Positions 2,877 to 33,099 of a stretch of DNA of 41,174 nt are shown here, piece by piece. Position 1 is the stretch's first letter; each line of letters opens with the position of its first letter. Source of the stretch: Chrysophaeum taylorii (taxonomy: Eukaryota > Sar > Pelagophyceae > Pelagomonadales > Pelagomonadaceae); NCBI GenBank assembly GCA_029834535.1, contig JAQMWT010000648.1, forward strand, positions 1-41,174, written 5' to 3'. The notes under the pieces are model-generated. The model searched no databases. It worked only from the letters and a program-made list of their open reading frames with translations, and was not told where the DNA came from. The position numbers and the translations under genes are program-made.

Positions 2877-3961
2877 AAAACTTGCAAATGTCGGTGGAGT
2901 TCATCCGATCCCATCATAATATCGTCGATAAACGCGACCAAGTCCTTATACATCCATGTGGGCAAATCGCTAGCCATCTGCTTACGAAAGTGAGCTCCTG
3001 CTGTTTTTACCCCTAGAGGCAAGCGCAAGAAACTATGGGCTCCAAGTGGACTTACCATCGCAACGGCGTCCTGAGCAGCGGCGTCCAAACGTAGGTTATG
3101 ATAACCCCATCGAATATCAATGCACGTCCGCCAACGGCGCATGGCAAGAAAAGCCAAAGCATCACCTTGACGAATATTCGGCCAACTGTCATTGACCAGC
3201 TGATCATTGAGCTGACGCAAGTCAACTGCAGCACGAAAAGCTTTCGACGTCCCGGCCTCTGCTCCCTTCTTAGGCAGCATCAGTACAGGGAATCCCCACG
3301 GAGAGTTCGCCGGTCGGATGACTCCATCGCGACACCACTCAGTGATCTGCTTTCTGAGACACTCGAGCTTTGCTGGCGTCAACCTATAAGGCGTCATCTT
3401 GATCGGTCGTGGGTTTGCGTCTTTAAATCGTAGAGAAACCGGTGGCGAGTCCACGGGTCTCATAATCGGATCAAAGAAAGCCCACGCGTATTGCACGCAG
3501 TGGCTCAACATCATCTTCGCATCATCATCCAGATGCGGGTTGTCGGGAATTCCCAGATCTCGAACAACCTTTTCGACTTCTTCCTTCGTCGGAATTGCGA
3601 CTTTCATCGCATCATTGTCCTTGACGTGCTCGGGAGTCTGCGGTAACGGTACACCGTCCGCATCGCGCGGCGCATCCTTCCATGGCACATCGAACTTTTC
3701 TTCGTATTTGAACCTCACCTCAGGGTGGCTCTTATTGATCTTTTCACCTTTGACGCGCACATTCGGCTCGCTCCTTACTTTCGGCTCCTGTTCAGGTTCA
3801 GGATCCGGCGGAACGTCCACTTTTGATTGTCGGGAGGGGGGCAGCAGAAGAAGTATGAGCCGTCCCCGGCGCATCTGTTGGAAGCGGAAGCATAGGGGCT
3901 TCTGGCGGTTCCCATTTAGTGGGATCCTGGAGATCATCTTTTGACACCCACTTAACGACAC
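2877..3961 (-). pseudogene. Reverse transcriptase of element A (truncated)
   Basis: This is a Ty3/Gypsy RNA-dependent DNA polymerase. Visible motifs are the proline-rich entry (RPANSPWGFPVLMLPKKG), AVDLRQLN, the LPLGVKTAGAHF block and the catalytic YxDD-type motif AFIDDIMM around 2925-2950. The frame is shifted by one against the upstream MTase. In B the same junction is read through in one frame, so A carries an indel in the C-run near 3830. Homology with B ends at 2877, where the LTR of D begins, so thumb, RNase H and integrase are missing. Confidence 0.9.
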
Positions 3962-5003
3962 GAGTACGCGTATTTAACAGCGGAATCTGTACGTGACGAA
4001 AGGTGGTGTCGGAGATTCGCAAATACTGCTCAAAGGATCGATCTGTCGGGCTCAACGCGGTCGGCAGGACTTCGCCACTTTGGCGGAAACCTCTGGTCAC
4101 GGAGTTGTGCAGATCGACTGCTAAAATCGCAAGAGTGTCTGGAGGGACGACAGACGCTAAATGTTTGAACGAATCTGTCTTAGACAAGCTAGCCCAATCA
4201 TGGTCCACCGGCATCGTGAGCAACTCGGCCGTCATCTCGAGAGTCAAAGGCGGAGTGTCCGAGCGATGCGGTCCCAAACGAAGAGGAACTCGCGTAACGG
4301 TGTAAGCCGTATCTGTTGCTTCTCGGGACGAGCCGAGATTATTCAGCTGGAGCAGGTGGCGTTCATGAGCATAACCTAAAGCTGCAGCAAATTTTTGTTG
4401 CATGTTCACACATGTCTTCGGAGCCTCTTGCAAGTGCAGTGGGTGACTGGAAACCAACAATCGCACGCGAGAGCTCATCAGAGTGGGCGTGATATCATGA
4501 AAATTGACGACGTACACGTAAGGGTGTAAGCGCGCTATATAAGAAATAATGGACGCCTCCTGTTCAATCAGCCACATCATGAAGCCAGCCATTTTGCACA
4601 GCTTCATCGTCCAGTTAGTGGCCGTAACACCCTCGCCAACATCTCTGGATGTCAAGTTGCAGAGTGCTGAATGAACGCAGGGTGGAGACGCTATACACAT
4701 CGACGATGACCATTCCGCTTCAGGCAAATAAGCCTTGATCAATCGGAGGGTCGAGTCATATCGTCCGCAGAGCGTGTGCTGAACCACAGGTATCTTCGGA
4801 AAATTCTTCTGATGAACCTTGTTGGCAGCTGTTGAAGAGTCAAGAGCAAGGACGACTCGAAACGACGTCCCGCACAACTCGTTCGCTCGTTGCAGTCCTA
4901 AAGTACTTCCTCCGGCGCCGCTAAAGAGCATCACAACCTTGCGATACGTGATCGGCACCCAGTGGACCTTTTCAAACCTTCGGCGAATCTCGCCTTCTGT
5001 AAC
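3798..5003 (-). CDS. C5-cytosine DNA methyltransferase domain, element A
   Basis: This is a retrotransposon-encoded DNA (cytosine-5) methyltransferase. In order it has motif I FSGAGGSTLG (AdoMet binding), motif II ALDSS, motif IV ASPPC with the catalytic Cys (4677-4691), motif VI as LIEQE (the Glu of ENV kept, Asn-Val replaced), motif VIII SSRVR, then a target-recognition segment. Motif IX is PLTLEMTAELLTMP and motif X is VVPPDTLA. The spacing between VI and VIII is short. All expected core motifs are present, so an active fold is plausible. It lies between protease/linker and RT in the gag-pol order. The frame is opened by a TAA at 5004-5006 where B has GAA. Activity and sequence preference cannot be read from this. 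Confidence 0.85.
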   Translation of the reverse strand, partial: VTEGEIRRRFEKVHWVPITYRKVVMLFSGAGGSTLGLQRANELCGTSFRVVLALDSSTAANKVHQKNFPKIPVVQHTLCGRYDSTLRLIKAYLPEAEWSSSMCIASPPCVHSALCNLTSRDVGEGVTATNWTMKLCKMAGFMMWLIEQEASIISYIARLHPYVYVVNFHDITPTLMSSRVRLLVSSHPLHLQEAPKTCVNMQQKFAAALGYAHERHLLQLNNLGSSREATDTAYTVTRVPLRLGPHRSDTPPLTLEMTAELLTMPVDHDWASLSKTDSFKHLASVVPPDTLAILAVDLHNSVTRGFRQSGEVLPTALSPTDRSFEQYLRISDTTFRHVQIPLLNTRTRVVKWVSKDDLQDPTKWEPPEAPMLPLPTDAPGTAHTSSAAPLPTIKSGRSAGS

Positions 5004-5618
5004 TTATCGGCATTTCTTTTCCTCCTCGTCAGTTCGTCGGTCGAAATCGTCGTTACCGAGCGATTCTTGACGAGAATTCTTCTTCTTATCAGCAGAAGGA
5101 GACGGCTTCTGCACCGAGCTCAAAAGCATAAGTTCAGGAGCCGCATTGCCTTGAGTAAGATGGCCTGCGACTGAAACAGTGAATGATAGGTTAGCCTTGT
5201 TAGATTCGGCTTCACCATCCTTCGTTATATCGTCGACCGTCTCCGCATTCAGCTCGTCATCAAAAGGAACAATAGCGCCCAAAGCGAGGACTTCACCTTG
5301 AGTAATCACGGTCGGCACATCCTGGGTAGAGGACATCGCCACTGGAGCTGCGAACTTATCATGATCCTCAGGAGAAGAACACATTCCATCGACAACCCCG
5401 AGTTGCTCGTACCCAGAGGACGTAGCAACGAAAACTTACCCGGTTTCCATGGGCTCTGAAAGAGCGACTGGCACGCAGTATGTGCGTCCAGGCTCGACCT
5501 TCATCGTGCGCGCAGCATAGGCTATCACTTCATAGGCATCGCTGTTCGAACTTCGAGAAGGCGTAACTGGAGGGACTCCCCAAGTCGTCGAAGCTCCCGC
5601 TCGTTTCGGCGGTGGACG
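5004..5618 (-). CDS. Linker between protease and MTase, element A
   Basis: This acidic segment joins the retropepsin to the MTase in one frame interrupted by TAG 5619-5621, TAA 5436-5438 and TAA 5004-5006. Part of it aligns with the linker of element C: the stretch METG, stop, VF in A matches LEKGQVF in C, so the TAA falls on a glutamine codon (CAA) there. The final part, with a Lys/Glu-rich run (DRRTDEEEKKCR), is shared with B just before the MTase. No enzyme motif is seen. Confidence 0.6.
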
Positions 5619-6123
5619 CTAGAGGTTTTCAATCACGCACAAGCGAGCGTAGACTCGGCTCTCAACTGTGCTCAGGCTCTTTTGCATCGCATGGTGCTGT
5701 TGCTCATAAACCTGAACTACCACGGGATTGCGCTCGTCATAAGTTGTTATGAACGTCAAAATCGGAGAATCGACTCGTCGATCCTGCACCTTTAACTTCT
5801 TGCGCCCATAGGCGACTTGTGTGCGGAGAAACGCAATGCGATTTCGCGGGTAGTCCACTATGGCTCCCAACACCCGAATATCGCGCGCTACCAGCAAAAA
5901 ATATATGATTAGTATCGGCCACAATAGCAACAACTGGAACGGCCACGTCGTCCGCAAGCGCAATCCGCAATGCGACCCATTTGTGGATAGTCGTCTTGTT
6001 CAATCCTGATCCGCACAGGGTGCGCTCGACTGGAGGATCGCCCCGATCAAGGATGATGCTATCCTTTGCCAGTTTTTCGACCATCCCACGACAAATATAG
6101 GAGACATCAGCCATTCCATCCAC
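5619..6123 (-). pseudogene. Retropepsin-like protease of element A
   Basis: This is an aspartic-protease-like domain of the gag-pol polyprotein. The active-site region reads GVDGMADVSYI instead of the usual D-(S/T)-G-A, and the flap/C-terminal region shows RVLGAIVDYPRNRI, matching the ILG block of retropepsins. The same unusual DGMAD core occurs in element C. The frame shifts at a T-run near 5895 and the ORF stops at TAG 5619-5621. It lies between gag and the MTase linker. Confidence 0.6.
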
Positions 6124-6125
6124 GC

Positions 6126-7315
6126 CTAAGTCGTAGCGAACTTCGGCCCTTCTCGTCGCCTATAAATATGACCACCTATAAACGCAAGTGTAGGGTCCAA
6201 ACAACCGATGGTGATGAGGTATTGCTCGATCTTTTCCCCATCGCTCGGCGAAAGTGCAGTGTGATGACATCGTAACTCCGGTTTCGTATCGCCCGGCATC
6301 TGCATCGTCACCGCTGCCATATCTGGCGTTCCACATCTCGCCTCTGAATCTATATTGGCGCTCGCCGCTTCGGCTGCTTCCTCATTCCCCAGTTTCGCTG
6401 ACAACAAATTCTGACACTTCTCAATCGGAGGCACATATACTTCCTCCTTTGTCTCTTCTAGCAATCGTCGTTTCTCGTCCATCAAATCGGACATTCCCGT
6501 TAACTTTTCCTCCATCGGCGCCGCTGTGGTCTGCTCTGCTGCGACCAAAACTGTATCGGCTAAAACATCGGCTATAACGGTCTCGGGGGGGGGGAAAAGA
6601 AGACGTCGTCCCCGACGTCAACTCAAGAGGTCTTACGCCATCATCGTGAACTGCCCTGCAAGACATGCACATTGACGAATGGGGGGACACTGGAATCTGC
6701 GGGATGGGTTCGTCGGTCTCCGAATCTGAGTCTTCCCAGTAGTGCGAAGAATCCAAAGTAGCATCTGATATTGCTTCCACATACGATGTAGAAGGCCACC
6801 GAACGATCCGAGCGTCGATGGTATTTTGCTCCTGTTGCAAACGATGGCTGCTCGTCACAGCGACATCCGCAACATCATCGGAGACTCGGGCGGGGCGCGC
6901 CGTCGGGTAAACGACAACTCCCGACGATGGCGGCGCGTCGCATAAAGATTGGAACGCGAAAGTTGCGCTCGAATGTCCCGAACTATCCTGATATCGGCCT
7001 CCATCATATTCGTCATCGTGATGTCGATGACGTCGGCGCCGGCGCGAATAGCGACTAGAGCTTCGGCGACGGCGGGGACTCGGGCTGGTTTGAGGAGTAT
7101 GGGCCTTTCGATCAGGGCTCTGGCTTCGATGTCGGCGCGACGATCGTCTAGAAGGCGATCGTCCGTCTCGCTGTCGTGTAGAAGACGACTTTCTATCCTT
7201 GATGCCTCTGACCTCGCTCACCATGGTCGCCATTGTGGTTCCAAGATCGGTGAGGGCCGTTTGAATTTCATTAGAAGGCTCCGATCCGCGCGTGGCGTTC
7301 GCATGAGATGCATCA
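6126..7315 (-). pseudogene. Gag C-terminal, Arg/Ser-rich region of element A
   Basis: This continues gag after a one-base frameshift at 7316. It has a long Arg/Ser-rich tract (for example SPSPRRRRSSSRYSRRRR near 7050), typical of RNA-binding tails, followed by acidic and proline-rich linker. A G-run at 6586-6595 causes a second frameshift into the segment leading to the protease. No CCHC knuckle is visible in this part. Confidence 0.5.
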
Positions 7316-8218
7316 TCACGCTTCGCCCAATCGGAACGCGATATGGGTTGCTTCTTCTGCTTGCGAATACGCTCCCCACATCGCACAGTAATAACGATCC
7401 GGGTCGCGGTTGCAAACCACGCGATTTCCGTGTTCATCTTCATCATGAGTGGTCCGGAAGAATCCGCAGTCATTGCACGTCCTCTTGCACCACAAAAAAG
7501 GATCTCGTAAGATCGGCGGATCCGTATTCCCAGACGGTTTATCCGCATCTTGCTTGGCTTGTTGGTCGGAGCCCATAGCTCGACCTCCCCGCCCTCGCGG
7601 CGGTTTATTCGATTTCGGATTAGGAGGGCCTTGGTCCGTCTCCTCCTCCATCAACTTTCGTAAGTCGTTCTCGAGCCGCGTGATAAGCGCCACCATCGAC
7701 TTAAAAGTCAAGTAACTATCAGGATGTCCGCTCCTCATAGTCCGCACACGGGTCCTCAACTCCTTGGATGTCAACCCACTGATAAGCTGGTCGAGGATAT
7801 CGACATCATCCATCGTGCGGCTGGACACGGAACAAAACACCAGGGCTTCCGATTGGAATCTGGTACAATACGTCTGGACGTGCCGCTCCCCAGACTTCTT
7901 CGGAACTGAAGCCTGGATGACCTTCCGCAGCTTGTCGAGCAGCTCCTGCGGCGTGCTCGGAGGTCGGCAAGTCGATCTAAAGTAATCCAGAATTAAATCG
8001 CAGTACGTCTTATTAAGACGACGGATGCGACGAACCGAGACTCTATGCTCTTCATCGTCAGCATCCAATTTCAAGTAAAACGACGGACCGTGCGGTAGCT
8101 CATCGCAGAGCTCCTCGTATTCCTGCACGTGTTCCTCAAAAATTGGTGCAACGGTGTCCCGTAGATGCACCGATAATAAGTAACGTAATTTAAAAATGCC
8201 CGTGGGTAGCGATCCCAC
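7316..8218 (-). CDS. Gag core of element A
   Basis: This is a helical capsid-like gag of about 300 residues starting at a GTG or just downstream. Its N-terminal block LRDTVAPIFEEHVQEYEEL is repeated in element E at 40880-40950, showing that A and E share a gag family. The C-terminal part holds a Cys/His cluster (CKRTCNDCGFF, then H and C) that may replace the usual zinc knuckle. It ends at a TGA caused by a one-base shift, and coding continues in the neighbouring frame. The long acidic coiled-coil N-terminus present in E is missing here. Confidence 0.7.
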   Translation of the reverse strand: MGSLPTGIFKLRYLLSVHLRDTVAPIFEEHVQEYEELCDELPHGPSFYLKLDADDEEHRVSVRRIRRLNKTYCDLILDYFRSTCRPPSTPQELLDKLRKVIQASVPKKSGERHVQTYCTRFQSEALVFCSVSSRTMDDVDILDQLISGLTSKELRTRVRTMRSGHPDSYLTFKSMVALITRLENDLRKLMEEETDQGPPNPKSNKPPRGRGGRAMGSDQQAKQDADKPSGNTDPPILRDPFLWCKRTCNDCGFFRTTHDEDEHGNRVVCNRDPDRYYCAMWGAYSQAEEATHIAFRLGEA

Positions 8219-8463
8219 TCGCTAAACAGCTTCCACCGTTCAGCTATACCAAATCAATTCCCGGGAGAATGCGCTGCGATTTCCAACTCGCACGCGTGTT
8301 CGTCGTCACTCGGAACGCACGAACACAAACAACGTTCGCGTATATTCTCAACGCAAACCGGTCCACTGGAACTCCGCGTGCTTGATCAGTTTACACGTAC
8401 AAATCCGGACCACGTAATACAATACGTACGGCAACACTCGCTCGTCGGCGACCGATGAAGTCG

Positions 8464-8485
8464 CACGATCTCGTGTACTCCACCA
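8464..8485 (-). promoter_or_regulatory. tRNA primer-binding site of element A
   Basis: Two bases inside the LTR edge the minus strand reads TGGTGGAGTACACGAGATCG. The same site in element E reads TGGTGGAGGATATGAGATTC at the same place. A TGG start, the position just after the LTR and conservation between two elements support a primer-binding site. Confidence 0.55.
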
Positions 8486-8487
8486 CG

Positions 8488-8809
8488 TATGGCGGCACAG
8501 AAAAACCACTCCTGACCCCCGGGTGACTAAGGGGGTACTCACCGACTCGTCCTAGACCTCACTGAACGAGGAAAACACGGACTCGGGGTCGGATATGCTC
8601 GCCACACACCTTGCTCGCGCTCACCAAGCCTCTCAACAAGATGGAGAGATGGTATATTATAGCAAGAATGCTACAAGAATACTGCAAGAATGCTTCTCAC
8701 AAGAGAGAGGTATGATGTCACTAGGAAGGTAGGGAAAGGCGTCCCGTTGAACGGGTATTAAGCCTCGAGAAAGGAGGGTAAGCCTTAGCGGTCAGGAGTT
8801 GCCGCCGCA
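8488..8809 (-). repeat. 5' LTR of element A
   Basis: This 322-bp LTR starts on the minus strand with TGCGGCGGCAACTCCTGACC and ends GCCGCCATA. The plus-strand LTR at 24015-24335 (element B) is clearly the same sequence. The related LTR of E (39149-39487) shows the intact inverted ends TGTGGCG/CGCCACA. It is followed by the primer site and leader (8219-8463) before gag. Confidence 0.75.
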
Positions 8810-9177
8810 GAGACGTTGAGTGTGCCGACTTTGATCTGATTGATGGGGGGGCGCAGCGACCCCGGGGCGGAGCCGAGGCTCCGCTCTTTGCGGCACCTCT
8901 CGAGAAGCCATAGTTTCATGGCGTGACGGCGGCCAGCCGGTTGGCAGCCGGAACGTTCGCAGTGGGGCGGGGTATGGCCGGGGGGCGAAGACGGTAGGTT
9001 ATCGACGAGTTGGTTGTCAGTCACATCGCGGTCTCCTCGTCGCATGGCGACAAGCTTGATGGTCACTCTCCGCCGACCGACCTTTCGGCGCTCCTCGTCT
9101 ACAGGCCCGTGATTCGGGACTGGCACCTGTCGGTCCGGCCTGGCTCCCATGCTCGGGAGAGGTCTGAAGTTAGTTAG
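8810..9177 (-). other. GC-rich flank of element A; possible C-terminal tail of the 552-aa ORF
   Basis: After the TAA at 9178-9180 the same frame stays open for about 120 codons, through 9150-8785, and only closes inside the LTR of A. This may be the original C-terminus of the upstream protein if the TAA is read as sense, or chance openness in GC-rich DNA. No motif was recognised. Confidence 0.25.
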
Positions 9178-17318: not shown

Positions 17319-17421
17319 TGTTGGTAGATTGGTTCCGGTACCTCGGACAGCGTGCCCGGTACCATGTACCGGAACATGACAGTACTTACCCCTAACCTGC
17401 TCAATCATCATTCCATCAACA
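17319..17421 (+). repeat. Copia-type 5' LTR of element B
   Basis: This candidate 103-bp LTR starts TGTTGG and ends CAACA, the usual Copia ends. It is directly followed by a primer site. It is short, like the 96-bp LTRs of the Copia element further right. There is no partner copy in the window, so the call rests on ends and primer site. Confidence 0.5.
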
Positions 17422-17437
17422 TGGTAGCAGGTGTTCG
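17422..17437 (+). promoter_or_regulatory. Primer-binding site of the Copia part of B
   Basis: The sequence TGGTAGCAGGTGTTCG starts directly after the LTR. The Copia element at 33551-37868 has TGGCAGCAGTGTTCG at the same place, which supports both sites. Confidence 0.5.
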
Positions 17438-17737
17438 TTCAGCATCGAACGAGTGCTGAGTGTTCGTGAGAGCTACGGGCATCGGATCGTTTTTCCGTCC
17501 TTCACGAACGTACTGTACGTGACTGCTTACGTGTCGGTTCGCAATTTTGTTTACGTGTCGCGACGATCTCATTGTCGCATTCTGACGTTGAATCAACGTT
17601 GAAGTGTCATTGATTCAGCTTCATCATCGTGGTCACCGCTTTTCGAGCCTGGCCTTCATCCACGTTGTGTATCTACGTGACACAGATCATACGTCTTCGA
17701 AATACACTCTGTGTATTACTCTTTTGTCGGATTAGAC

Positions 17738-20200: not shown

Positions 20201-22250
20201 TGCTGGGCCCCCCCGACAATCAAAAGTGGACGTTCCGCCGGATCCTGAACCTGAACAGGAGCCGAAAGTGAGGAGCGAGCCGAATGTGCGCGTCAAAGGT
20301 GAAAAGATCAATAAGAGCCACCCAGAGGTGAGGTTCAAATACGAAGAAAAGTTCGATGTGCCTTGGAAGGATGCACCGCGCGATGCGGACGGTGTACCGT
20401 TACCGCAGATTCCCGAGCACGTCAAGGACAATGATTCGATGAAAGTCGTAATTCCGACGAAGGAAGAAGTTGAGAAGGTTGTTCGAGATCTAGGAATTCC
20501 CGACAACCCGCATCTGGATGATGATGCGAAGATGATGTTGAGCCACTGCGTGCAATACGCGTGGGCTTTCTTTGATCCGATTATGAGACCCGTGGACTAG
20601 CCACCGGCTTCTTTACGCATTAAAGACGCAGACCCACGACCGATCAAGATGACGCCTTATAGGTTGACGCCAGCAAAGCTCGAGTGTCTCAGAAAGCAGA
20701 TCACTGAGTGGTGTCGCGATGGAGTCATCCGACCGGCGAACTCTCCGTGGGGATTTCCTGTACTGATGCTGCCTAAGAAGGGAGCCGAGGCCGGGACGTC
20801 GAATGCTTTTCGTGCTGCCGTTGACTTGCGTCAGCTCAATGATCAGCTAGTCAATGACAGTTGGCCGAATATTCGTCAAGATGATGCTTTGGCTTTTCTT
20901 GCCATGCGCCGTTGGCGGACGTGCATTGATATTCGATGGGGTTATCATAACTTACGTTTGGACGCCGCTGCTCAAGACGCTGTTACTATGGTTAGTCCAC
21001 TTGGAGCCCATAGTTTCTTGCGCTTACCTCTAGGAGTAAAAACAGCAGGAGCTCTCTTTTGTAAGCAGATGGCTTGCGATTTGTCCACATGGACGTATAA
21101 GGACTTGGTCGCGTTTGTCGACGATATTATGATGGGATCGGATGAACTCCATCGACATTTACAAGTTTCGATTGAAGTGGTGTGCCATTTAGCACAGCGA
21201 GGATATAATGGACGAACTTCGAAGTTCCACCTCCTCAAGGATGAAATCGAGTTTTTGGGACATATTTCGACTCCGGAAGGCTTGAAGCCGAATCCCAAGA
21301 CGTTAGAAGCGTTGCAGCAGATGCCGATTCCCGGTACGTAGCCCAATACGTCCCCGAAGACCCAGATTCGATCTTTCATTGGTATGAGCAACTATTGCCG
21401 CCGATATGTGAAGAATTATTCGAAGATTGTTGAGCCGCTTAGGCGATTGTGTCTTGAAGGCGTTAAGTTTGAGTGGACGGCTGAGTGCCAAAAGGCATGG
21501 GACACGATCATCGAAACTTTGGTGGATTATCGTGGAGTTTATCATCCTGACTACGATCTTCCTTTTCAGATCCGCTCGGATGCTTCCAAGGATGGTCTGG
21601 GTGCGTATCTTTTTCAGCTCGTGGAAATCAAGGACGAAACCGGCAAGGTGACACGAGAGGAACGAGTAATTGAGTATTGGAGCCGAGCTGTGCCGAAAGA
21701 GATGCGGAACTATGAGCCTCGCCGGCTAGAGCTCCTGGCAGTTATTCTTTCTCTTGAGCATTTCCGCTCTTATATTGAAGGTCACAAGACGATCCTTGAA
21801 ACAGATCATCGCAACTTGACGTTTTTACGAAAGGCGAAGCACTCGTCTGGGCAGTTGGCTCGATGGGCGATGCGGCTCGCCAATTTTGATCCTGAATTGG
21901 GTTACAAGCCAGGGAAGTCGCCGGGAATGAGCATCCCTGACTGTCTCTCTCGCAATCCTGTAGATCATGTCATCGAGACGGACGAGTTTGGTGAGCCCTT
22001 GAACCACGCGTATCTAGCGTGCCAAGAACTCCCTCGTTCTGTTGATGATGAAGGAGTACCTTTACCTGGGTGCAATGTCATTCTGTCGTTTGTTACGACT
22101 GAGCTGCCTGTGGAGGAAGAGGAGGAAGACCTCGATGATCCGATGCAATTGGTCACGTTTCATGCTACGAAACAACGTCAGAAGCTACGACTTCAGACCC
22201 AACCTAGTATTTTCCGTGATGCCGATGACTACCAAGAGTACATCGACCAG
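20201..22250 (+). CDS. Reverse transcriptase and RNase H of element B
   Basis: This is a Ty3/Gypsy RT followed by RNase H. RT motifs are RPANSPWGFPVLMLPKKG, AVDLRQLN, CIDIRWGYHNL, LPLGVKTAGALF and the catalytic FVDDIMM near 21114. RNase H shows SDASKDGLGAYLF (first Asp) near 21580, the Glu-containing RRLELLAV and the TDHRNL block. The frame carries TAG at 20598-20600 (A has Ser TCG there) and TAG at 21339-21341, in the connection before RSFIGMSNYCRRYV. There are no frameshifts. Confidence 0.85.
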
Positions 22251-23984
22251 ATTCCAGATAATTTGACTTTGGAAGAGATAGCCAAAGAGCAGATCACTGA
22301 TGCTACTTGCGAGGACATTCGCAATCGCATGGCTCAGGGCCATTCTCTTCGTCGGTACGGAGCCAATTATCGCTATCGAGTGGTGAAAGGAGTTCTCTAC
22401 CGTGCCGCACCCGACTTGCACCCGATGATAGTCGCACCCCGAACTTCACGGACGCGCATCATCCGATTGTACCATGACACACCTCTCAATGGTGGTCATA
22501 TGGGTCGTCAAAGTACAGTGCAGTCGATACTTGAACGTTTTTGGTGGCCTCATATGTCTAATGAGGTGGGTGCTTACATTGCTGGTTGCATAGTGTGCAA
22601 GAAAGCTCGTACGCCTGAACCAAAGAGAGCAGGTCTGCTTCAGCAACCGGTGTATGATGGTGATTGTGTCGTACTTTGTATGGATTTGTTTGGACCTTTG
22701 CCCAGTGCTGGTCCCGAGACATATCTCATCGTCTTTTTTGATCCATTTTCTCATTTCTTGATTCTTGACGTACTACAACATAAGACTGCTGAGTCAATCC
22801 TCGAGTCTTTTGTCGCGAATATATTACTCAAAGGTTATATACCTCAGAGGATTCGTACCGACAATGGGAAAGAGTTCGTCAACAAGTTGATGGAAGAGGT
22901 TTGTCATCTTTTCAATGTTCGGTAGAGTACCACGATTCCGTATCATGCTCGGGCTAATCCTGCGGAAAGGGTCAACCGCTTTATCGAGGCTTTCCTCCGT
23001 GCGTGCCTTCAGAACCGCAAGATCGCGGAATGGCCCGAATTCGCGGAGTACATTGCTTTCTGTTATAATCGCAAATTTATTCCGGGGACTCAGATCTCAC
23101 CTTTCATGCTTCGTCTTAACCGGCAGCCTTTATTGCCAACCGATTACACGATCATGGATCTTGATGTCCGCCGCCAGCCGAAAACTCGCTCCGATGTTGT
23201 GGCAGAGACTCGCGAGAGGCTGAAGTTCTATACCACTACGGTGAACGAAGCTCGTGAGAAGGCTCTTCGTAAACAACGTCTCGCCTATAATGCGGACCAT
23301 GTTGATGTGGAGTATGAAGAAGGTTCACATGTTCTGCTCTACATCCCTTTTCTTCAGAACAAGCTTCGACCGGAATGGCGCGGTCCATTCGTTATTTTGG
23401 AACGCTTGTCCCCGGTCACTTGCAGGATTGAGTCTCTTGATTATCCTCCCGAACGCCGTTGTGTTCATGTTAGTCAGATTACCCCTGTGATGGTTTCTCC
23501 AGTGGTCGATCGAGCTGTGCCCAAGCCCAAGGAGACCTTTCGGGATGATTACAAGCATGGTATGTTCGTTATCTTTCGGATTCCGGATAATAAACGGTCC
23601 GATTGGCGAAAGAAGATTTATGTCGCTGAAGTTTATGAACCCTAAGATTTTGTGAATGACCGAGTCGCTCTGCATTTCTATGCTGATCTCGGTCCCCATG
23701 ACAAGGTTTCTTATTACAAGCCTACTTCACATCTCTCTACTCGCAAGCTTAAGCCGGAATACAAGGACGTGGACGGTCGCAGTTTCACCGACAAGACCAA
23801 GGTCAACAACAGTACCACTCCTTGTGTCACCGACTTCGCCCCGCATGAGATCGATGTGTTGATTCCTAAGTTCACTTTACGTGGTGGACGCGTTCCTGAA
23901 CCTGTCGTTGAACGTGCCTACAAGAAGATTCGTTCTCGAGATGCTCATTCAGCCACGGCTCGTGCTTCTCGCCGGACTCGATGA
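22251..23984 (+). CDS. Integrase with GPY/F motif and extra C-terminal domain, element B
   Basis: This is a retroviral-type integrase. The HHCC zinc finger is at about 22470-22600 (H-x-H spacing in HDTPLNGGH, then CIVCKKA). The catalytic core has CMDLFGPLP, RTDNGKEFV and NPAERVNR with the Glu. A GPY/F module follows (RPEWRGPFVI near 23370). Beyond it lies an extra domain of about 150 residues (23540-23984) with YVAEVYEP and VALHFYADL, which I cannot name; it reads across TAA 23643-23645. A TAG at 22923-22925 precedes STTIPYH, where related integrases often have Gln. The frame ends at TGA 23982-23984. Confidence 0.8.
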
Positions 23985-24014
23985 GGGCAGCTCGTGTTCT
24001 CACCAGGGGAGTCC

Positions 24015-24335
24015 TGTGGCGGTAACTCCTGACCGCTAAGGCTTACCCCCCCTCTCTCGAGGCTTGATGCCCGTTCAACGGGACATTTTCCCGATCTTTT
24101 TAGTGACATCACACCTCTCTTTTGTGAGAAGCATTCTGGCTGTATTCTTGTAGTTTCCTTGCTATCATATTCCATCTCTCCATCTTGTTGAGAGGCTTGG
24201 TGAGCGTGAGCAACGTGTGTAGCGAGCTTATCCGACCCCGCGTCCGTGTTTTCCTCGTCCAGTGAGGTCTAGGACGAGTCGGTGAGTACCCCCTTTGTCA
24301 CCCGGGGGTCGGGAAGGTTTTTCTGTGCCGCCATG
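24015..24335 (+). repeat. 3' LTR of element B (Gypsy type)
   Basis: This 321-bp LTR starts TGTGGCGGTAACTCCTGACC and is homologous to the LTR of A (8488-8809). A short purine tract (CAGGGGAG) lies just upstream as a weak polypurine-tract candidate. The 5' end of B has no matching LTR, because that end is Copia-derived. Confidence 0.75.
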
Positions 24336-24656: not shown

Positions 24657-25531
24657 GCGTTTTCTTAAATCAAAGGTGGTAAAGTTAAGTGAACTAACCC
24701 TAGAATAGGGGGTACTAACCCTAGTTCAGATTTTCTATCTCTAATCATCCTTGAGCAATGCATTGAAGCGCCGCAGGTCGACAGCGCCCTGTACGCATTG
24801 GAAGTGCCAGGCTCCGCACCTTTCATAGGCAACATCAAAATAGGGAAACCCCACGGAGAATTCGCGGGACGAATAACTCCGTCTCGGGTCCATTCTTCAA
24901 TCTGCATCCGCAAGCATTCGATCTTTTCCTTCGACAACCGATATGGGGAGAGTTTGACGGGAGTCGGGTTCTCTTCTTTGAACCGGAGCGTCATTTCAGG
25001 TGAATCAACAGGTCTCATCACATCGTCGAAAAATGCCCACGAACACGAGATTATATGCTTCATCATCAGCTTCTTGTCATCATCTAAAGCAGGATGCTCT
25101 GTAATACCCAACTCAGTCATCACCTCGTCGACCTGCGCGACGGTCGGAGGGATGACCTGTATGCTCTCCTGATCCGCTAAATGAGGAGGCATCACCTGTA
25201 AAGGTTGACCATGTTCGTCGTGAGGCGCGCCCGCCCACGGAACGTCGTGCTTATTAAAATACGCAGGTCGCTCCTTCGCGGTGCCTTCTTCTTCAGCAGT
25301 TGCGGAGGGCTGGTCGTTGGCTTGGTTGCTCTGCATAACTGCAGTGGCGACGGTGCCTGCCCCCTGCAAAAGATTGAGCCGTCCCAGGCGATGTAACCGA
25401 AGGTGGTGGCGGGGTGGTGGGGGCAGCAGCTGATGGTGCAGGACTCGCAGGAGAGTAGAGGTCATCGGGCGAGATCCATGACTCACTTCGAGTGGCAGGG
25501 TCGAGTGCTGGAATGCGCGACTCGACAGCAA
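24657..25531 (-). pseudogene. Reverse transcriptase of element C (truncated)
   Basis: The N-terminal and fingers region of a Gypsy RT is clear: RPVDSPEMTLRFKEENPTP and RPANSPWGFPILMLPMKG. After a frameshift comes VDLRRFNALLKDD. The stretch behind it holds two TAG and one TGA codon in frame, then FTTFDLRK, and ends at 24657 against the LTR of G. The catalytic YxDD part is absent. Confidence 0.75.
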
Positions 25532-26251
25532 AAGGTAAAAACCGTAGAATATGGTGATCGGGTTGGGCTATCGTAGTCGTCGCAATATTCCGCTACTTAC
25601 CCAAATTTCGAAGTGAAGGGTCAAACGAATTGTGCACTGCTAGCGCGACCTGCGTCATAGTCGCGGGTGGCACCATACTGCCAAGCATCTTCATAGCTGC
25701 TGTCTCTGATACTTTCTCACCCCATTGCCACGTAGCAGGAAGGGCCATAATTTCCTGGTGCATTTGCAGCGTGAGTGGACGGGTGTTCGAGAAATGAGGT
25801 CCCATCTGCAATTTGTTGCGCGTCACTGTGAAGGCAGGGCCTATAGCCGGGCGCGTAGATGAGAAGCTACTTACTATAATAAGCGGGCGACCACCTGTAA
25901 ATCCCAACGCTGGCCCAAAACGGTCCCGTAAATTCGGTGGTACACGCTATAATAACGGCAGTTCCAAGCGAACATTGCAAGCAAGTAGGCGCGTGCGCGA
26001 GCACAGCAATTCTGGTGTGATACTATAAAAGTCGACAATGCGCGGCACATGAAATTGGTGATGCACAAAAGGGATCACTGATGGTGCCTGCTCGAGCGTC
26101 CATCGTCCAATTGCATAAGGTGCGTTGCGGAAATGACGCAGGATCCAAGAAGTAATAGTAGTGCCCTTGCGTGCGTCCCTGTAGTGCAAATTGGCAGTCG
26201 ACCCATAGATACACGGCGGACTTGCGCGAAAATAAGAATGCTTCCAAAAAC
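25532..26251 (-). pseudogene. C5-cytosine methyltransferase of element C, 3' part
   Basis: Downstream of the Helitron insertion the MTase continues with motif IV ASPPC (26211-26225), motif VI as TLEQAP, motif VIII CSRTRLLAC and motif IX RPLTLQMHQEIMALP. Motif X is MVPPATM, followed by VHNSF and SWISPDDL as in A and B (WVSKDDL). The frame passes TAG 25947-25949, which aligns with Gln (CAA) in A and B (HLQEAP), and TAG 25593-25595. The core motifs are kept even though overall similarity to A/B is low. Confidence 0.75.
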
Positions 26252-27306
26252 CCTAACTACTAATCGACAGATGTTTGTCTGTTTGTCTGTCTGTTTGTTT
26301 GTTTGTCTTTAAATGTCGACTGCTTGTTTGTCCCTCGATATAGGGTAAGGATCAGGTTGGCCCGCGAGCCAGACAGTGATCCTCCAAGCCGTCTACCGCG
26401 ACCTCGCAGACTATTTCCACGACCCGCGGCGGCTTTTTCGGCGCGCCATTCTCACGCCCCTTCGAAACGATGTTGTCGATGCTGACAACGCGCGCATGAC
26501 CGCGGCCTTTTTTTCCCGGAGACGAGGCGTCGGAGTTCTTTTCGGCCGACTAGGTTGGGTCGGAAGACGACGCCTCGCTCTCAAGAGTCGAGTCTTGAAC
26601 TCCCTGACAACCAACGGCATGCTGACTTTGATCGCGAGCTTAAAGTCTTCGCAACCTCGACCCGTCGCACGGCCACTGCAACGGTACCAGATACATGATC
26701 GATCGTGTCGTTGTCACCGAGGCTCCTCCAACCTGTATCCCTTAAGGCCCGCCTACGCCAAACGATCAACAAGAGCCAGGACCAGACGCCCCGCGAGGTC
26801 CGCGTCCTCTTGCCCACAAGCCCGTCTTCTGTCACGTCCAGCTCTACGTGGCTCTCTGTCGATCGGCAACCCCGAGAATATGCTCTTCTGAGTCGACGAC
26901 TCCGCCCTACCCCACACGTGCTCCGCAATACCGATAAGCCCCCTCCCGGCGTCTACACGCGCAATGTAGGTGAACTTACTGGGACCAGGTGAACTTACTG
27001 GGGTTTGAGATTGGGACTAGGTGAATATAGTGACCAGGTGAACTTACTGGGACCAGGTGAATTTACTGGGGGTTTTAGAGTAAACTCAAAGATTAGCGGC
27101 GTGTGCGGATCAAAGCAGCTTAGATTGGCGGAGGCGAGAGCGACGAGCTCGATGGAGTGGTGTGAGCACGAGTGGGCTTGCGCCAAACTTACTGGGGTTA
27201 GAGATTTGGACTAGGTGAACTTACTGACCAGGTGGACTTACTGGGACAAGGTGAACTTACTGGGGTTAGAGATTGGGACTAGGTGAACTTACTGGCCTGC
27301 ACTTGT
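26252..27306 (+). mobile_element. Helitron-type non-autonomous element, copy 2
   Basis: This 1055-bp copy has the same ends as copy 1 (CCTAACTACTAATCGACAG to GCCTGCACTTGT). It carries the same helicase relic with the same T-run frameshift and TAG (26551-26553). It sits inside the MTase gene of C. Removing it rejoins the two MTase parts in frame without any target duplication, as expected for Helitron transposition. The 3' part is built of GAACTTACTGGG repeats. Confidence 0.75.
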
Positions 27307-27556
27307 CTGAATGTAAATACGACAACACCAAGTCGCATGTACGACGATTAGATTTCCCCAACTCATGCAAGACATAGGGAATCTTCGGAAAATTGAGCTC
27401 AAAGGTGGCTCGGGCTTGCGGACAAGCATCCAAAGCCAGGACATTGCGGAATGAACTGCCATATAGCTCATTGCATCGCCGGATACCCAACGTTGATCCT
27501 CCAGCGCCAGCAAAATAGACGACGACAAAGGTGTTGGTGATGGGTATCCAAACCAA
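27307..27556 (-). pseudogene. C5-cytosine methyltransferase of element C, 5' part
   Basis: This N-terminal MTase piece has motif I FAGAGGSTLG (27485-27514), ALDACPQARATFELNFPKIP (motif II region) and a segment ending LSYLHS. It matches RLIKAYLPE of B just before motif IV. Helitron copy 2 interrupts it here. The frame is shifted by one against the linker upstream. Confidence 0.75.
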
Positions 27557-27566
27557 GGAGGCGTGC

Positions 27567-28229
27567 TTAGATAGCAGCTCCTAAGCGGTCGCCTCCATCT
27601 CCATTTCTGGTGTTTTTTCCCACTTCTTCATCTGGAGGTGGCTCAGGAGGAGGTCTGTCACTCAAGACATCCTCCTCGACTTCATTCTCGTCAACAGCAG
27701 CCGTGAGAGTCGCGTGACAAACGTCCTCAGTAGCTCCTAGCTGCATGTTGACACATCCTTCATGCGACATGATCTCGCCTTCGACCACCGGGACTTCGGG
27801 GTCGATACCAATGGGTTCTTCACCAATGTGCTCCACGGCCACATGAACTACGTTGGGCTCGTCGGAGCAATACGATGAATAGGAGCCAGGTACGTGGCGG
27901 AGATCTGGGAGGAGTGACCGATGAGGTCGGAATACTTGACCCTTTTCCAGCGGCGCATCGCACTCCATCTCCAATAAGTACGGTTGGCTCGGAAGAAGAA
28001 ATCGAGTACTCGTCACGTACGCGAAATGAGGGATGATATCTTCCTCGTCTGCAGGGCATTTAAGTTGGTCTTCCGCTTTTTCAGCAGTCTGATCACCGCG
28101 ATGAGCATGATGGTGATTCGCTCTGGCACGAATAGAGCGCAGCAGGCTGTCATAACTCCACGGTTTACCAACTGGCGTCCAAGTTTGGATATTCCCGTCT
28201 TGTATAGCGAGCTTAGCTGTCGGAAACAT
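27567..28229 (-). CDS. Linker between protease and MTase, element C
   Basis: This 220-codon acidic segment follows the protease in the same frame after a TAG (28230-28232) and ends in TAA 27567-27569. The stretch LEKGQVFRPH aligns with the linker of A. The C-terminal part is Glu/Asp/Pro-rich. No catalytic motif is seen. Confidence 0.55.
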   Translation of the reverse strand: MFPTAKLAIQDGNIQTWTPVGKPWSYDSLLRSIRARANHHHAHRGDQTAEKAEDQLKCPADEEDIIPHFAYVTSTRFLLPSQPYLLEMECDAPLEKGQVFRPHRSLLPDLRHVPGSYSSYCSDEPNVVHVAVEHIGEEPIGIDPEVPVVEGEIMSHEGCVNMQLGATEDVCHATLTAAVDENEVEEDVLSDRPPPEPPPDEEVGKNTRNGDGGDRLGAAI

Positions 28230-29137
28230 CTACACTACCTGCGGAGTCGCATCGAATGCATCATTATAAAGGACAACTCGATGCTGGTCTTGTGGCGATG
28301 CGGAAGTCCGATTCTCGAGAACTCCGATGGTCACTTCAGAACGCCGGAAAATAACTCTCTCTGTTACATAATCCAAAATCGTACCCAAGAGTCGTAATTC
28401 TCGTGCTCCCAATAGTAACTGCCCATTAGTTTGACCAACAAAGAACATGAGCAGTATGGATGTCATTGGCACCAAGGAGATCCGGAGAATGACCCATTCT
28501 CGAATAGCAGCTCCCGAACCTCCTGACCATTCAGAGTGCGAATCGTAGGGAGTGGCTGACGATAGATGATTTTGCCGTCACGATCAAGTTTGCGATACAA
28601 GCGGTGATCGATGTAGGGGGAATCAGCCATGCCATCAAAACCGGCAGCGATGATGGAATATTTCGAACCATCTAGCGAAGAGACAGCCACAGGCACATAC
28701 GTCAAAGAGGCGGATCTCGAGCCATCGTACCTCACGGCTTTATTTTCACGATGGTCGGGATCCTGAGTGGTATTCAACGCAGTCTGAGGGCAGAAACTCT
28801 CGAAATCCGAGGAGATGGAAGGGTGAGCGGCGTAACGCTCGGCGCAGTCGTCCCTCGGTGGCACTATATCCATAGCAACCAAGGTATCTTGTCCCACACG
28901 AACGATCGTATATCCCAATCCGCCATGATTATCTTCGTCTTCCGAGGGAACTCTGGGTGCAACTCCGGTCACTTCGGTACTTTGCCCCTGCTCCTCCACC
29001 CACGCATCTTCAGTGATGACCAAAAAGGAAGGAGGTTCCATGGGCTCACCAGGGGAATAGCCTTCTGCAGAGAAGCTATCGTCATCGCCTCCAACATCGT
29101 CATCGTCATCGTCACCGTCATACACGTTGCCCTCCAT
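28230..29137 (-). pseudogene. Retropepsin-like protease of element C
   Basis: An acidic N-terminal linker precedes the active-site region AAGFDGMADSPYI, then LLLGARELRLLGTILDY as the second conserved block. The DGMAD core matches that of A. A frameshift near 28470 separates the two halves. Upstream it joins gag through a TAG at 29147-29149 in the same frame, an arrangement also known for gag-stop-pol readthrough. Confidence 0.55.
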
Positions 29138-29146
29138 GAGCTCAGA

Positions 29147-29870
29147 CTACTGCACAGGGCAGAAGCCCGCTCGCTTAGCGTCATCCTGGACTTCACCAAG
29201 CACTTCAAGCCACTGAGCGGCGACACCATCATTACGCTGGCTAGGGTTTGCTCTCTGCGGCTGTTGCCCTCTAACCGTTGGAGCAGTCTGGTGTGCTTGA
29301 CGAAGCAAGTTCATCGTGTTGAGAGCCGTAGTCAGATCCTCCAGGCGCACCGAGGTCTGAGCGGTCCGCTGCACTGCGGGCTGCCTTCGGACCACCTGCT
29401 GTTGAGTGCCTGCAACCAAACGCTGTTGAGTGCCTGCAACCAGCCGCTGTTGACCTGCACCTGGAACCTGTCCTGCTGTGTGGACCATCTGCGGCTGTTG
29501 CACAACGCGCGGCGCTAGCTGAGTCACTGAAGCCTGTTCTGCTGCAGCTAAAAGCGCCCGTCGGTATTGCTCCTGTCCCTCTGGCGTTGCTGGAAAACCC
29601 GCATTCGTCAACGTCTGAGCAGCACGTCTCTTCCTCGAGGGATTGTCCGCCACAGGCCACACACCGTTGTCGTGGAAAAAACTACCATGCCGGCCGCAAC
29701 TAAGGCACGTCGTAGTTGCTTGACGCGTATTGGTATCTATCCCTTGTGGTAGCCAGGTTCCAAATCCCGAGTCAGTAACATAACCAACCCGTTGTACTGA
29801 CTGCAACTGCTGCATCTGCTGCTGCTGCTCTCTCCTCATCCGTGGTGCGCGCTCCTTTCCCTTCTCCTTC
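29147..29870 (-). CDS. Gag C-terminal part of element C with Cys/His motif
   Basis: This is a Gln-rich segment with CLSCGRHGSFFH (C-x2-C-x3-H) as a probable zinc knuckle variant and repeats of LVAGTQQR. It continues the gag of 31092-32532. Deleting the Harbinger-type insert with one TTA copy joins EEAIK to KEKGKERAPRMRRE in frame. Confidence 0.65.
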
Positions 29871-29873
29871 TTA

Positions 29874-31088
29874 GGCCCGTTCTCCACCAGATCAAAGTTG
29901 CAAAATTTGCTAAGTCCCTTTTTTTGCAACTTTGCGCACCCGTTCTCCACCGGGGAGGGCAAAGTTAAAAGCGAAATGGTCAAATCTGCTAAGTACTTCG
30001 ATGACGGCGAGCGGAAGAGGAGGCTCGAGCGGAAAAGGATGCTCGAGGCCGTCTCACGAGTTGTAAACGTCATCGCCTCATTGCGCTCGTGGATTGCGAC
30101 GAGCGGGTCGCAGCGGCACGCCGCGGGCCCACGCCGCTGCCGGTTGTCCACCTAAACCCTGTGTGTCCGCCAAAACGTGCGAGCGCATAGCTTTAAGCTA
30201 CACATTTTTTCTGTCGGGAACGGGAGTTCAGAGGGGCGCAGAGGTCAAGCGGGCGCATATGGGCGCGCAGGTCGGCAAACTTTTCTTGATCGTGGTGGCG
30301 CTGGCGACATGGCCAGGGCTGGGGAACGGAGTGATATCGGTTAGATCCTCGAGGTTGTCGTCCTTGCTAAGGAAGAGGTTCGTGTCGAGCTGGCGTCGAG
30401 CGTGTTGAAGGTAGCGGCCGCCTTTTTCCAGAACCAGTTGGTGTCCTCAGCTTCCGGCTCGGCCCGCGTCGCCGTCAGGTCCCGCAAGAGAAAGTCGGTC
30501 CCCAGCTTGACAAAGTCGTAGACCATCCGCGGGTGGCTGTGCTGGCGGGTCCAGCGCTGAGTCGCAGGAGGTGGGGGCTAATCCGGGCTGATCTGAGAGT
30601 GCGACGGCTGCGTCCGTACAGGCACGGCAGGAACACCGAGCGCAGCTGGTCCCCGTATGACCGTGTACGCGGTGTCGGCGCCGGCTTCGTTCCAGTCGTC
30701 GTCCTCGTCGTTCGGCGATTCGTGCCTCGCCAGCCAGTCAACCAATGCCTGCCAGTTCCAATTCAAGTCGCGCAGCGCCGCCTTTCCGAGAATTTTAGCC
30801 CGCCGCCCTATCTCCGTCTTCAAGGAAGTGTTGTCGGGGCACGTACCACGCGGATACCAGGCCTGCTTGGTCATGGGGGTCCACCCGGGCGCGATCGACC
30901 GCAACGCCGACCGCTTCTGCTCTTCCGACACCCCTCGAGCCATCAACTTGGCGTTTGAAACAACTTCGATCGAGTTTGAGGGGTGCCTGGCTAGGGCTCG
31001 AAAATAAGGGCCTGAAAATCAAAGTTGACAAAATCGAACTTGGCAAATCCTCCAACTTTGATTATTTGAAGCCGGTAGAGAACGGCTC
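29874..31088. mobile_element. PIF/Harbinger-type element in gag of C
   Basis: This 1215-bp insert is flanked by the 3-bp duplication TTA (29871-29873 and 31089-31091). Its imperfect inverted ends are GGCCCGTTCTCCACC and GAGCCGTTCTCTACC, continuing inward as ATCAAAGTTG...ATTTGC(T/C)AAGT on both sides. TWA duplications and G-rich ends are typical of PIF/Harbinger and Tourist elements. Precise removal restores the gag frame of C, which confirms the boundaries. No DDE transposase is visible. Confidence 0.75.
30245..30943 (-). CDS. Hypothetical ORF inside the Harbinger-type element
   Basis: This frame of about 230 codons runs from ATG 30943 (MARGVSEEQKRSALRSIAPG) to TGA 30245, passing TAG 30578-30580 and TAA 30341-30343. 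It has Trp-rich helical parts (LRDLNWNWQALVDWLARH and EDTNWFWKK). PIF/Harbinger elements often encode a second, Myb-like protein, but I cannot confirm that here. Confidence 0.4.
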
Positions 31089-31091
31089 TTA

Positions 31092-32532
31092 ATCGCCTCT
31101 TCGATGTTGGCAGTAGGGTTGGCTTCCAAAATCTTGGAGATCTGGATGGTCAATTGAATGACATCATTGAGCGTGAGAGTATATGCTTTCATATGGGGTG
31201 AGGCCTGAGCAAGTTCGACACTCGTCCGCCAGCGCTAAGAATTGAGCCCCGCAATGAAGTGCGAACGGAACGCAGCAGGATCAGTATCGCGACCTGACAT
31301 TGCTCGGCACCGGCCGAATTTCTGCACCCACCGCGCAATGTACTTGTTCGATGACAAATTCCGTTGCCGTAAATTGAACCATTCACGTTCAAGCTCATCA
31401 ACCGTAGCCCGAGGTGGGCAAGGAAGCTTCGTCTTCTCTTGCATAACATCCAAACAGTCCTCATCATGCTGCCGCAGCTCTTTTATGTGACTGTTCCTTC
31501 CTTGTATTTCCCCCACATCTGCGGCCGTTCGGCTTCCCATTTGCGATAAGCTTCCATAGGGGCAAGTTGATACTCGCCTCCGATCACGTTCATCGCGATC
31601 GAAGGCCTGTCAATTCTGCCTTCCATCATACGCCGCAATTGCATCCACCACGCGTCCGCCTCCTCCCGGTCCTTAGTAATTTGCCCACTGAGATTCGAAA
31701 ACGTGATACGAGTCATACCAGCAGCTCCCTTCTTGATCTGAAGTATCTCTCCTTCGTTACGAGGACGTGCTGAACCGGGGTCAGTATGATGCAGCGGGAT
31801 AGGCTCCGGTTGACTTCGCGGTGGCTGATCGTCGGTCAGTGCCGATACAGCGTCATCTTCTTCGGGCGTAACACGCGTAGCATCCGGAGAGGCTGGCCGT
31901 GCCTCTCGAGCATGCGCCCGCGTGGATTCCTCCACCATTCGTCGAAGTCGATCGTTGTCGATCCGTTGCCGCTCCACTTCTGAGCGTTGTTGTTGCGCGT
32001 CGCGGCGGGTGCGCTCAATATCAAGTAGGACTTGCTCGAGCTGCGACTGGTACATCTCGAATCGTTCGTTGATGGCCTGCAGAATCTCGGGGTCGGTATC
32101 CACTCGAAAATCTGCCGCTCTCGTATTCGCGGATGGTGGCCTAGGAGGCGCACTCTCCTCTGGTCCACGCATCGCAGTAGTGACTCCGGGGTCCGCTCGA
32201 GATGACTCCGTAGCATTCATCGCACGTTGGTAGGCTCGTGCGTACGGGAACGTCGGCTCACCCGGTCTTGAAGTTGCGTCTGGCGCAACCGTAGCCCCCC
32301 CTTCGCCGGCGCGTGGACCCGGAAGGATGACCACGCTTGGGGGGCTATCGAGGCTATCGGACGATCTTGCCTCTCTTCTTATGCCGCTTTCCTCGGCTTC
32401 CGGCCGCTGGAAGGGCGAAATGAACCGTGTTCTTCCAATAGACGCAAATGGAGTCCCTGCACTGAATCGTTGCAGACGCTCCTGTGCGTCCCGAAACCAG
32501 TGCGGTCGTTCTGTCATTGGCCTTTCTGCCAT
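31092..32532 (-). CDS. Gag of element C
   Basis: It starts at ATG 32532 (MAERPMTERPHWF). Next comes a Pro-rich N-part, a coiled coil (YQSQLEQVLLDIERTRRD) and the retrotransposon gag core (EADAWWMQLRRMM; LEREWFNLRQRNLSSNKYIA; FRSHFIAGLNS). A frameshift near 31500 separates two frames. A TAG at 31235-31237 falls inside the conserved gag core, with clear continuation (RWRTSVELAQASPHMKAYTL) behind it. It ends at the Harbinger-type insertion. Confidence 0.7.
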
Positions 32533-32954
32533 GACCGCGCTTTGCCCGGATATGAGGTTAATCCGAACGCTCACAACTCGCTTGTTGCACTCTTTTTCGT
32601 CAGACGACAAATTGCTGGCAGCCGTCTGACTGCGCGCTGTACCGGTGCGCTGGACTCACGAAGTCTTTGCCTTGCGCGCGAAGACTATGGACGGCCTTCG
32701 CGGCGCTGTCGCTCGCCGTCAGGGAGGTGGTCTGCCTCGCGCGAGCTAGGTTAGGTCTTACTCTTTCTTTGCCTGGTTGGGTCTTACGATGCTTTGCCTG
32801 GTTGAGTCGTAGTGACTCCGCTCCCCGTTCGATCCGAATCACGTAAAATGAACCCCGCGGCTGTATCCGTGATCCCCTGGATCTTCACCCACAAATGCGT
32901 TGGCTTCGCGTTCACTCGACCGTTACGAACCGACTCGCCGCCGAAAAACAGGAG
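32533..32954 (-). other. 5' leader of element C
   Basis: This is leader sequence between primer site and gag ATG, with a TTGCCTGGTTG-type short repeat near 32765-32805. The gag frame is open upstream of the ATG, so an earlier non-ATG start is possible. Nothing else is supported. Confidence 0.4.
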
Positions 32955-33000
32955 ATCGATAGTCCGGGAGTTGGACTATCGATTCCCGTTTCTGAGACCA
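32955..33000 (-). promoter_or_regulatory. Primer-binding site and hairpin of element C
   Basis: One base inside the LTR the minus strand reads TGGTCTCAGAAACGGGAATC (32979-33000). Its complement looks like a tRNA 3' end with T-arm, TCGATTCCCG and ACCA. The inner part overlaps a perfect 11-bp inverted repeat, ATCGATAGTCC and GGACTATCGAT, with a 7-base loop (32955-32983), which would hide or present the primer site in RNA. Confidence 0.6.
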
Positions 33001-33001
33001 C

Positions 33002-33099
33002 TGTAGTGGTTTTCTCTCTCAGACACCCGCCCCTCTTGGCCGGACCAGAGGCCTCAACAACCCTTCCTCCCAACCCGAACCGCGGGTGAAACCACCACA
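33002..33099 (-). repeat. 5' LTR of element C
   Basis: This 98-bp LTR has ends TGTGGTGG and CCACTACA on the minus strand, next to a convincing primer site. It is very short for Gypsy. The 3' LTR is lost, so it cannot be compared. Confidence 0.55.

Follow-up and report, generated by a model that had tools for sequence, protein, structure and literature searches.

Ty3/Gypsy retrotransposons of Chrysophaeum taylorii with a divergent C5 cytosine methyltransferase domain ahead of the reverse transcriptase

We analysed a stretch of 41,174 nucleotides from Chrysophaeum taylorii (contig JAQMWT010000648.1, our contig C648, positions 1-41174), referred to here as the window. It harbors Ty3/Gypsy retrotransposons in which a C5 cytosine methyltransferase (MTase) domain is located between the protease region and the reverse transcriptase (RT) of Gag-Pol. 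Judged by its motifs and profile matches the domain is a divergent C5-MTase, and it is under purifying selection nearly as strict as that on the RT. We suggest, with some reserve, that its most likely role is to modify the cDNA of the element inside the particle. All counts refer to the genome behind the window (70.8 Mb, 697 contigs), and labels of the form Lnnn denote loci elsewhere in that genome.

A preliminary description of the window had reported three Gypsy elements, each with a complete-looking MTase inside the gag-pol order. The elements and their parts are as follows.

2877..8814, minus strand: element A, Gypsy, with a 5' long terminal repeat (LTR) at 8489-8814, gag and protease region spread over several frames, MTase, and an RT cut at 2877
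3933..5072, minus strand: MTase domain of A, 95% identical to that of B in protein (tblastn); PF00145 at 25.2 bits in frame 3798-5003
17386..18939, plus strand: foreign sequence joined to B where its own gag and protease would be expected; a zinc-knuckle-like stretch is seen by eye
18926..24334, plus strand: element B, with MTase, RT, RNase H, integrase and a 3' LTR at 24011-24334
18975..20114, plus strand: MTase domain of B, open; PF00145 at 23.1 bits, PADLOC C5-MTase models to 4.1e-10
24744..32107, minus strand: element C, Gypsy, second family, with gag, protease region, split MTase and the start of RT
25461..26246, minus strand: MTase piece 2 of C, motifs IV-X, 34% identical to B over 266 columns (tblastn), with two stops
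26321..27306, plus strand: approximately 1 kb repeat inside the MTase of C, between motifs II and IV
27314..27580, minus strand: MTase piece 1 of C, motifs I-II, 45% identical to B over 89 columns (tblastn)

Elements A and B belong to one family and C to another, in keeping with the two families of the preliminary description. A full domain is present in A and B only; that of C is split by the repeat and contains the two stops. None of the three elements is intact: A breaks off within RT, B carries the foreign stretch in the place of gag and protease, and C is both interrupted and cut. Element A is 94.9% identical to L039 over 5333 columns (8191-2877), its LTR is 89.6% identical to the 3' LTR of B (24334-24011), and one TAA is found just ahead of its MTase domain, before motif I. 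Element C matches L055 in three pieces at 91-94%, with the RT end near 24744, and has a further insertion at about 29873-31087. The repeat that splits its MTase has internal tandem units and occurs three times in the window (15201-16188, 26321-27306 and 37878-38801).

The order with MTase between protease and RT could not be upheld for B itself and is found in other members of the family. The 18200-18930 segment has 12 matches in the genome including itself, of which nine span almost its whole length. Three other copies were read with their flanks (L064, L065 and L066), and their similarity to the window stops at 18939 without reaching the MTase. The sequence as far as this position is thus, by these alignments, part of another repeat, and B is without a native gag and protease. 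The frames of B match RVT_1, RT_RNaseH, Integrase_H2C2 and rve in the Gypsy order, and its LTR gave 41 genome matches from 40 scored of 428 candidates. The pol of B has three in-frame TAG codons (20598, 21339 and 22923); a reassignment of TAG was rejected, as L040 runs from MTase to RNase H in a single frame.

In other members, the RT lies on the same strand 436-876 bases after the MTase in 44 of 47 rows, which speaks for a fixed place in the family. It should be said of this set that 3 rows were left out because they gave no match that could be used, that three loci occur twice and that L018 and L019 appear to come from duplicate contigs. L040 and L056 encode gag, protease region, MTase and RT in a single frame, which in L040 continues through RNase H. 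Neither protease nor gag gave a Pfam match above cut-off, and the protease is recognised by eye only. By eye, too, the protease region of L040, L041, L055 and L056 reads DGMA (VDGMAD, LDGMAD) instead of the usual DTG/DSG. About 90 bases past the MTase there is a run of 5-11 C (L010-L042), found in 24 of the 34 rows tried, that differs between copies and so alters the reading frame of the RT with respect to that of the MTase; it may be a slippage site, a mutation hotspot or a sequencing error.

The domains of A and B show motifs I (FSGAGG), II, IV (SPPC), VI, VIII (RxRLL), IX and X (VPP) in order. This list had been given before and stands, except that motif VI is altered and reads EQ. C5-MTases usually have E-N-V at motif VI. 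The catalytic Cys of motif IV is present in 43/43 rows (31/31 and 12/12), and the Glu of motif VI in 30/31 and 12/12, the exception being L031 with Lys. Nearly invariant as well are the glycines of motif I, the arginines of motif VIII and the prolines of motif X. All eleven members of the domain alignment match PF00145 at E <= 0.1 (best 2e-10), a check that the preliminary description had proposed. With the cut-off of 22 bits, the PF00145 matches in the frames of A and B cover motifs I-II only, and L056 (C type, motifs IX-X) and L055 reach 31.5 bits each. Over their full length, the MTases of the B and C types can be aligned with 38-39% identity, and both ends of the domain are therefore tied to C5-MTases. 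Bacterial C5-MTase models of PADLOC match to 1.2e-12; the strongest part is the front of the domain for some of these models and the back for others. DNA methyltransferases of PHROGs match to 3.7e-12.

The copy numbers are to be read as lower bounds. With the domain of B as query, at least 108 places were found (108 scored of 1094 candidates, 108/108 matching at E 2.2e-195 or better, B included), 80 of them without an internal stop and 28 with. These fall into two subfamilies, B1 with 57 places (83% identity or more to B) and B2 with 51 (75-78%). A piece of the C domain matched in 150/150 scored places (of 593 candidates), of which ten are of B type (39-42%) and one is doubtful (49%); about 139 places are thus of C type, some of them being two pieces of one copy.

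Selection was measured as dN/dS (the ratio of nonsynonymous to synonymous substitution rates) by the method of Nei-Gojobori; the ratios between subfamilies are rough, as dS there is 1.4-2.1. For the MTase, dN/dS is 0.065 between B1 and B2 (62 pairs) and 0.086 between C1 and C2 (12 pairs), and the corresponding values for RT are 0.039 (46 pairs) and 0.045 (10 pairs). Within subfamilies the MTase gave 0.247 for B1 (463/465 pairs, those without a synonymous difference being dropped) and 0.270 for C1 (65/66). The preliminary description had spoken of a successful strategy in this host, and the copy numbers together with the purifying selection fit this.

One relative was found outside the genome. 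P0121, a 2086-aa Gypsy polyprotein from public contigs (sources lgn and ena; 10 members on 9 contigs), was the sole match of a protein search with the MTase of L056 (E 1.3e-37, 32% identity, 80% of the query). Aligned to the Gypsy MTase with hhalign, its domain gave E 1.5e-38 over 297 columns. As in C. taylorii, the MTase of P0121 lies ahead of RT, RNase H and integrase. In a joint alignment including P0121 every sequence has EQ at motif VI, the Cys, R.RL and VPP; P0121 differs in having SPSC where the C. taylorii copies have SPPC. A protein search with the MTase of B gave nothing at E <= 0.001 (candidates of about 353-1122 aa), and scans by a few short patterns found no relatives of the Gypsy MTase in IMG/VR or GTDB contigs and none of P0121 in IMG/VR.

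The MTases of B2 and C2 are 38% identical and that of P0121 is 32% identical to either (32-34%); for RT the values are 61% and 42-44%. As the lineages rank in the same order by MTase and by RT, these comparisons, in three lineages only, suggest that the MTase entered the Gypsy lineage once and stayed. The capture looks old, given that P0121 shares its place. When the joint alignment was searched against PDB sequences, 8 of the 9 matches at E <= 10 were C5-MTases, namely the bacterial 3g7u (E 0.0031, the only significant one), DNMT2 enzymes (0.054 and weaker), another bacterial enzyme and M.HaeIII. DNMT3 was absent from these 9 matches and from the 2 of a further PDB search. The closest sequence matches thus appear to be bacterial and DNMT2-like C5-MTases, a placing with respect to DNMT3 that is made from matches and not from a tree.

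What may the domain do for the element? We suggest that it would be made together with Pol and packaged in the particle, and that it would there methylate the element's own new cDNA, or an RNA:DNA intermediate, prior to integration. The methyl mark could label the cDNA as self or shield it against an attack on unmethylated cytosines, and it would be transient or lost after integration. This self-modification is favored because the domain is part of Pol and is under selection nearly as strict as RT, and DNA is favored as the substrate because the profile matches are to bacterial DNA-modifying enzymes.

Several results weigh against this proposal. As whole proteins, L040 (19.7 bits), L039 (21.9) and P0121 (13.2) fall under the cut-off of PF00145, and NCBIfam dcm gives 18-22 bits, far under its cut-off of 100.65. 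Motif VI has Asn changed to Gln in all three diverged types. The predicted structures are of low confidence (mean pLDDT, the predicted local accuracy score, of 34 and 42). No CpG depletion was seen in the window (observed/expected 0.94-1.63) or in eight element loci (0.98-1.31). Singleton C-to-T changes are not in excess at CG, CHG or CHH: in 28 B1 copies they number 4.83, 4.83 and 5.33 per kb, with A-to-G at 4.80, and in 11 C1 copies 7.49, 7.11 and 6.57, with A-to-G at 8.38. This is so despite a host gene of DNMT5 type that would be able to maintain CG marks, and decay by deamination was rejected on these rates. There is no sign of lasting 5-methylcytosine in the copies in any context; transient methylation of cDNA, methylation of RNA or efficient repair are possible readings. 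On a separate point, the placing with respect to DNMT3, a Foldseek search with the model of pLDDT 42 runs counter to the sequence matches: it listed DNMT1 first (4.1e-5), with many DNMT3 chains and other methyltransferases, at a TM (template modeling) score of about 0.3, and was given little weight.

The host gene in question (L062:468-6725, contig C621) has a 2086-aa frame with PF00145 and SNF2, the layout of DNMT5, and DNMT5 is recorded in pelagophytes in parts of PMC9998398 and PMC3145265. Judging from this gene, the host probably has CG methylation. A second host protein, L001, matches PF00145 at 69.6 bits and was named DNMT2-like from its motifs by eye. Contig C697 holds an rbcL gene; among the 120 relatives listed of 8000 scored, the one row that carries an organism name is Pelagococcus subviridis at 93% identity, and the closest full-length rows are at 97%. 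By this marker the host is probably a pelagophyte or a near ochrophyte.

A missing footprint in DNA would be accounted for if the enzyme were instead an RNA m5C (5-methylcytosine) methyltransferase acting on the primer tRNA or on packaged genomic RNA. We regard this as a serious rival, albeit an unlikely one. DNMT2 enzymes come next behind the bacterial C5-MTase among the PDB matches (E 0.054-0.061), and hhalign aligned the Gypsy profile to the host DNMT2-like protein at P 0.0011 and gave no match to the DNMT5-type protein. However, the best models are bacterial DNA-modifying enzymes, and the DNMT2 matches are weak and restricted to motifs I-II.

The Gln of motif VI, together with the SPSC of P0121, could also mean that the domain methylates no longer and is retained because it helps Pol to bind nucleic acid or to fold. 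This we hold to be improbable, as the Cys, the Glu, the Gly of motif I, the Arg of motif VIII and the Pro of motif X are almost invariant and would be needless in a mere scaffold. Still less probable is that the enzyme works in trans on host chromatin and changes silencing or the state of insertion sites. The many copies and the host's own DNMT5-type gene would suit such a role, but selection per copy favors action in cis, and CpG is undepleted in the two host gene loci measured (1.26 and 1.44). Finally, although all three elements in the window are broken, a local accident, be it a piece of a host gene or meaningless decayed copies, was rejected and is hardly credible given the 108/108 matching B-type places, 80 of them without a stop, the about 139 places of the second type and the relative P0121.

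Self-modification of cDNA thus being our preferred reading for the Gypsy elements, we note that the same genome holds a second retroelement C5-MTase. Six of the 8 loci fetched for PF00145 (L003-L008) are of a kind other than the Gypsy MTase. In L057 and L058, both long stretches, this domain is inside a Copia element, between a protease-like motif (by eye) and the integrase. The members recorded are the following.

L057:2597-7999, contig C96: Copia with C5-MTase
L058, contig C314: Copia with C5-MTase
L004, contig C120: Copia with C5-MTase
L008, contig C564: Copia with C5-MTase

In brief, the 1801-aa frame of L057 encodes a C5-MTase with LPC and ENV (32.2 bits), an integrase (weak, 0.0055) and RVT_2 (1.3e-17). 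The Copia MTase has at least 137 matches in the genome (132 scored of 637 candidates). Its profile gave no match to that of the Gypsy MTase; both alignments are shallow, so that a remote shared origin is not excluded. The Copia MTase matched no C5-MTase among PDB sequences, and scans by a few short patterns found no relatives of it in IMG/VR or GTDB contigs. Based on these observations, we consider it rather probable that an undescribed C5-MTase lineage with the EQ motif was captured once, long ago, by Gypsy and diverged together with RT across organisms, and that Copia independently took a second, unrelated-looking C5-MTase with LPC and ENV.

The rest of the window contains further repeats. 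A fourth element, of the B2 subfamily, starts near its end, and its MTase would fall outside the window.

39149..40589, plus strand: start of the fourth element, with LTR at 39149-39488 and gag; 94.9% identical to L040, the LTR part 93.8% to L041

On the minus strand, 33551-37869 is a Copia element of approximately 4.3 kb with RVT_2 and 97-base terminal repeats (98% alike); the frame tested had no PF00145 match. The 9178-15188 region is GC-rich (about 60%) and contains long frames, of which those tested gave no Pfam family above cut-off; its GC skew is strong near 11-13 kb.

Hosts commonly silence transposons by cytosine methylation. It is therefore a paradox that some transposons maintain a cytosine methylase of their own under selection, and few cases are published. 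If our reading is true, two LTR superfamilies have independently arrived at a self-encoded cytosine methylase, at hundreds of places in a 71-Mb genome. Such repeated capture would suggest usefulness in reverse transcription or cDNA survival, and the independent families are available for testing this. What is new is that a known, rare phenomenon is extended to an ochrophyte host group and to what appears to be another enzyme lineage, one whose active-site motif is altered. The capture also looks old, since a second source shares it, and Copia elements of this genome seem to have made a capture of their own in parallel.

We recognised no report of these elements in pelagophytes in the open-licence literature, subscription papers lying outside that coverage. 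In part of its text, PMC6338049 refers to methylase-encoding elements in stramenopiles, with a proposal of antiviral roles, and a passage of PMC12477816 concerns a methylase of 4mC/6mA type in a brown-algal DNA transposon. The closest precedents are in de Mendoza et al. 2018 (PMC5890265), where the relevant sections report DNMT-bearing LINE and DIRS elements in Symbiodinium and a Gypsy-Dnmt3 in Klebsormidium, show that DIRS-borne DNMT3 domains methylate CG in yeast, and give the Copia elements of Symbiodinium as without DNMT. PMC12344493, in the portion that cites this work, refers to it as 'LTR Copia and DIRS' and describes orphan DNMTs.

Among profiles, the bacterial type II C5-MTases, DruM and the DrmMII methylases of PADLOC match best, and do so at either end of the domain. 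Those are free-standing enzymes with ENV at motif VI; here the domain is part of a retroelement polyprotein. SymbioDIRS-Dnmt3 and SymbioLINE-Dnmt are likewise retroelement C5-MTases in hundreds of copies, according to the sections of PMC5890265 on Symbiodinium. They belong to the DIRS and LINE classes, whereas the elements described here are LTR Gypsy, with RNase H, H2C2 and rve of Gypsy type and the domain in Pol, not in ORF1 (open reading frame 1) as in SymbioLINE. The same sections present the SymbioLINE enzymes as an orphan lineage and their copies as CG-depleted, which the elements here are not. The nearest counterpart is KnitGypsy-Dnmt3 of Klebsormidium nitens, also a Gypsy LTR element with a C5-MTase in Pol under purifying selection (Ka/Ks < 0.2 in the published account, against 0.065-0.086 here). 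In that account the domain of KnitGypsy clusters with DNMT3, whereas the one in C. taylorii, an ochrophyte-like host, appears closest to bacterial and DNMT2-like enzymes and has EQ at motif VI.

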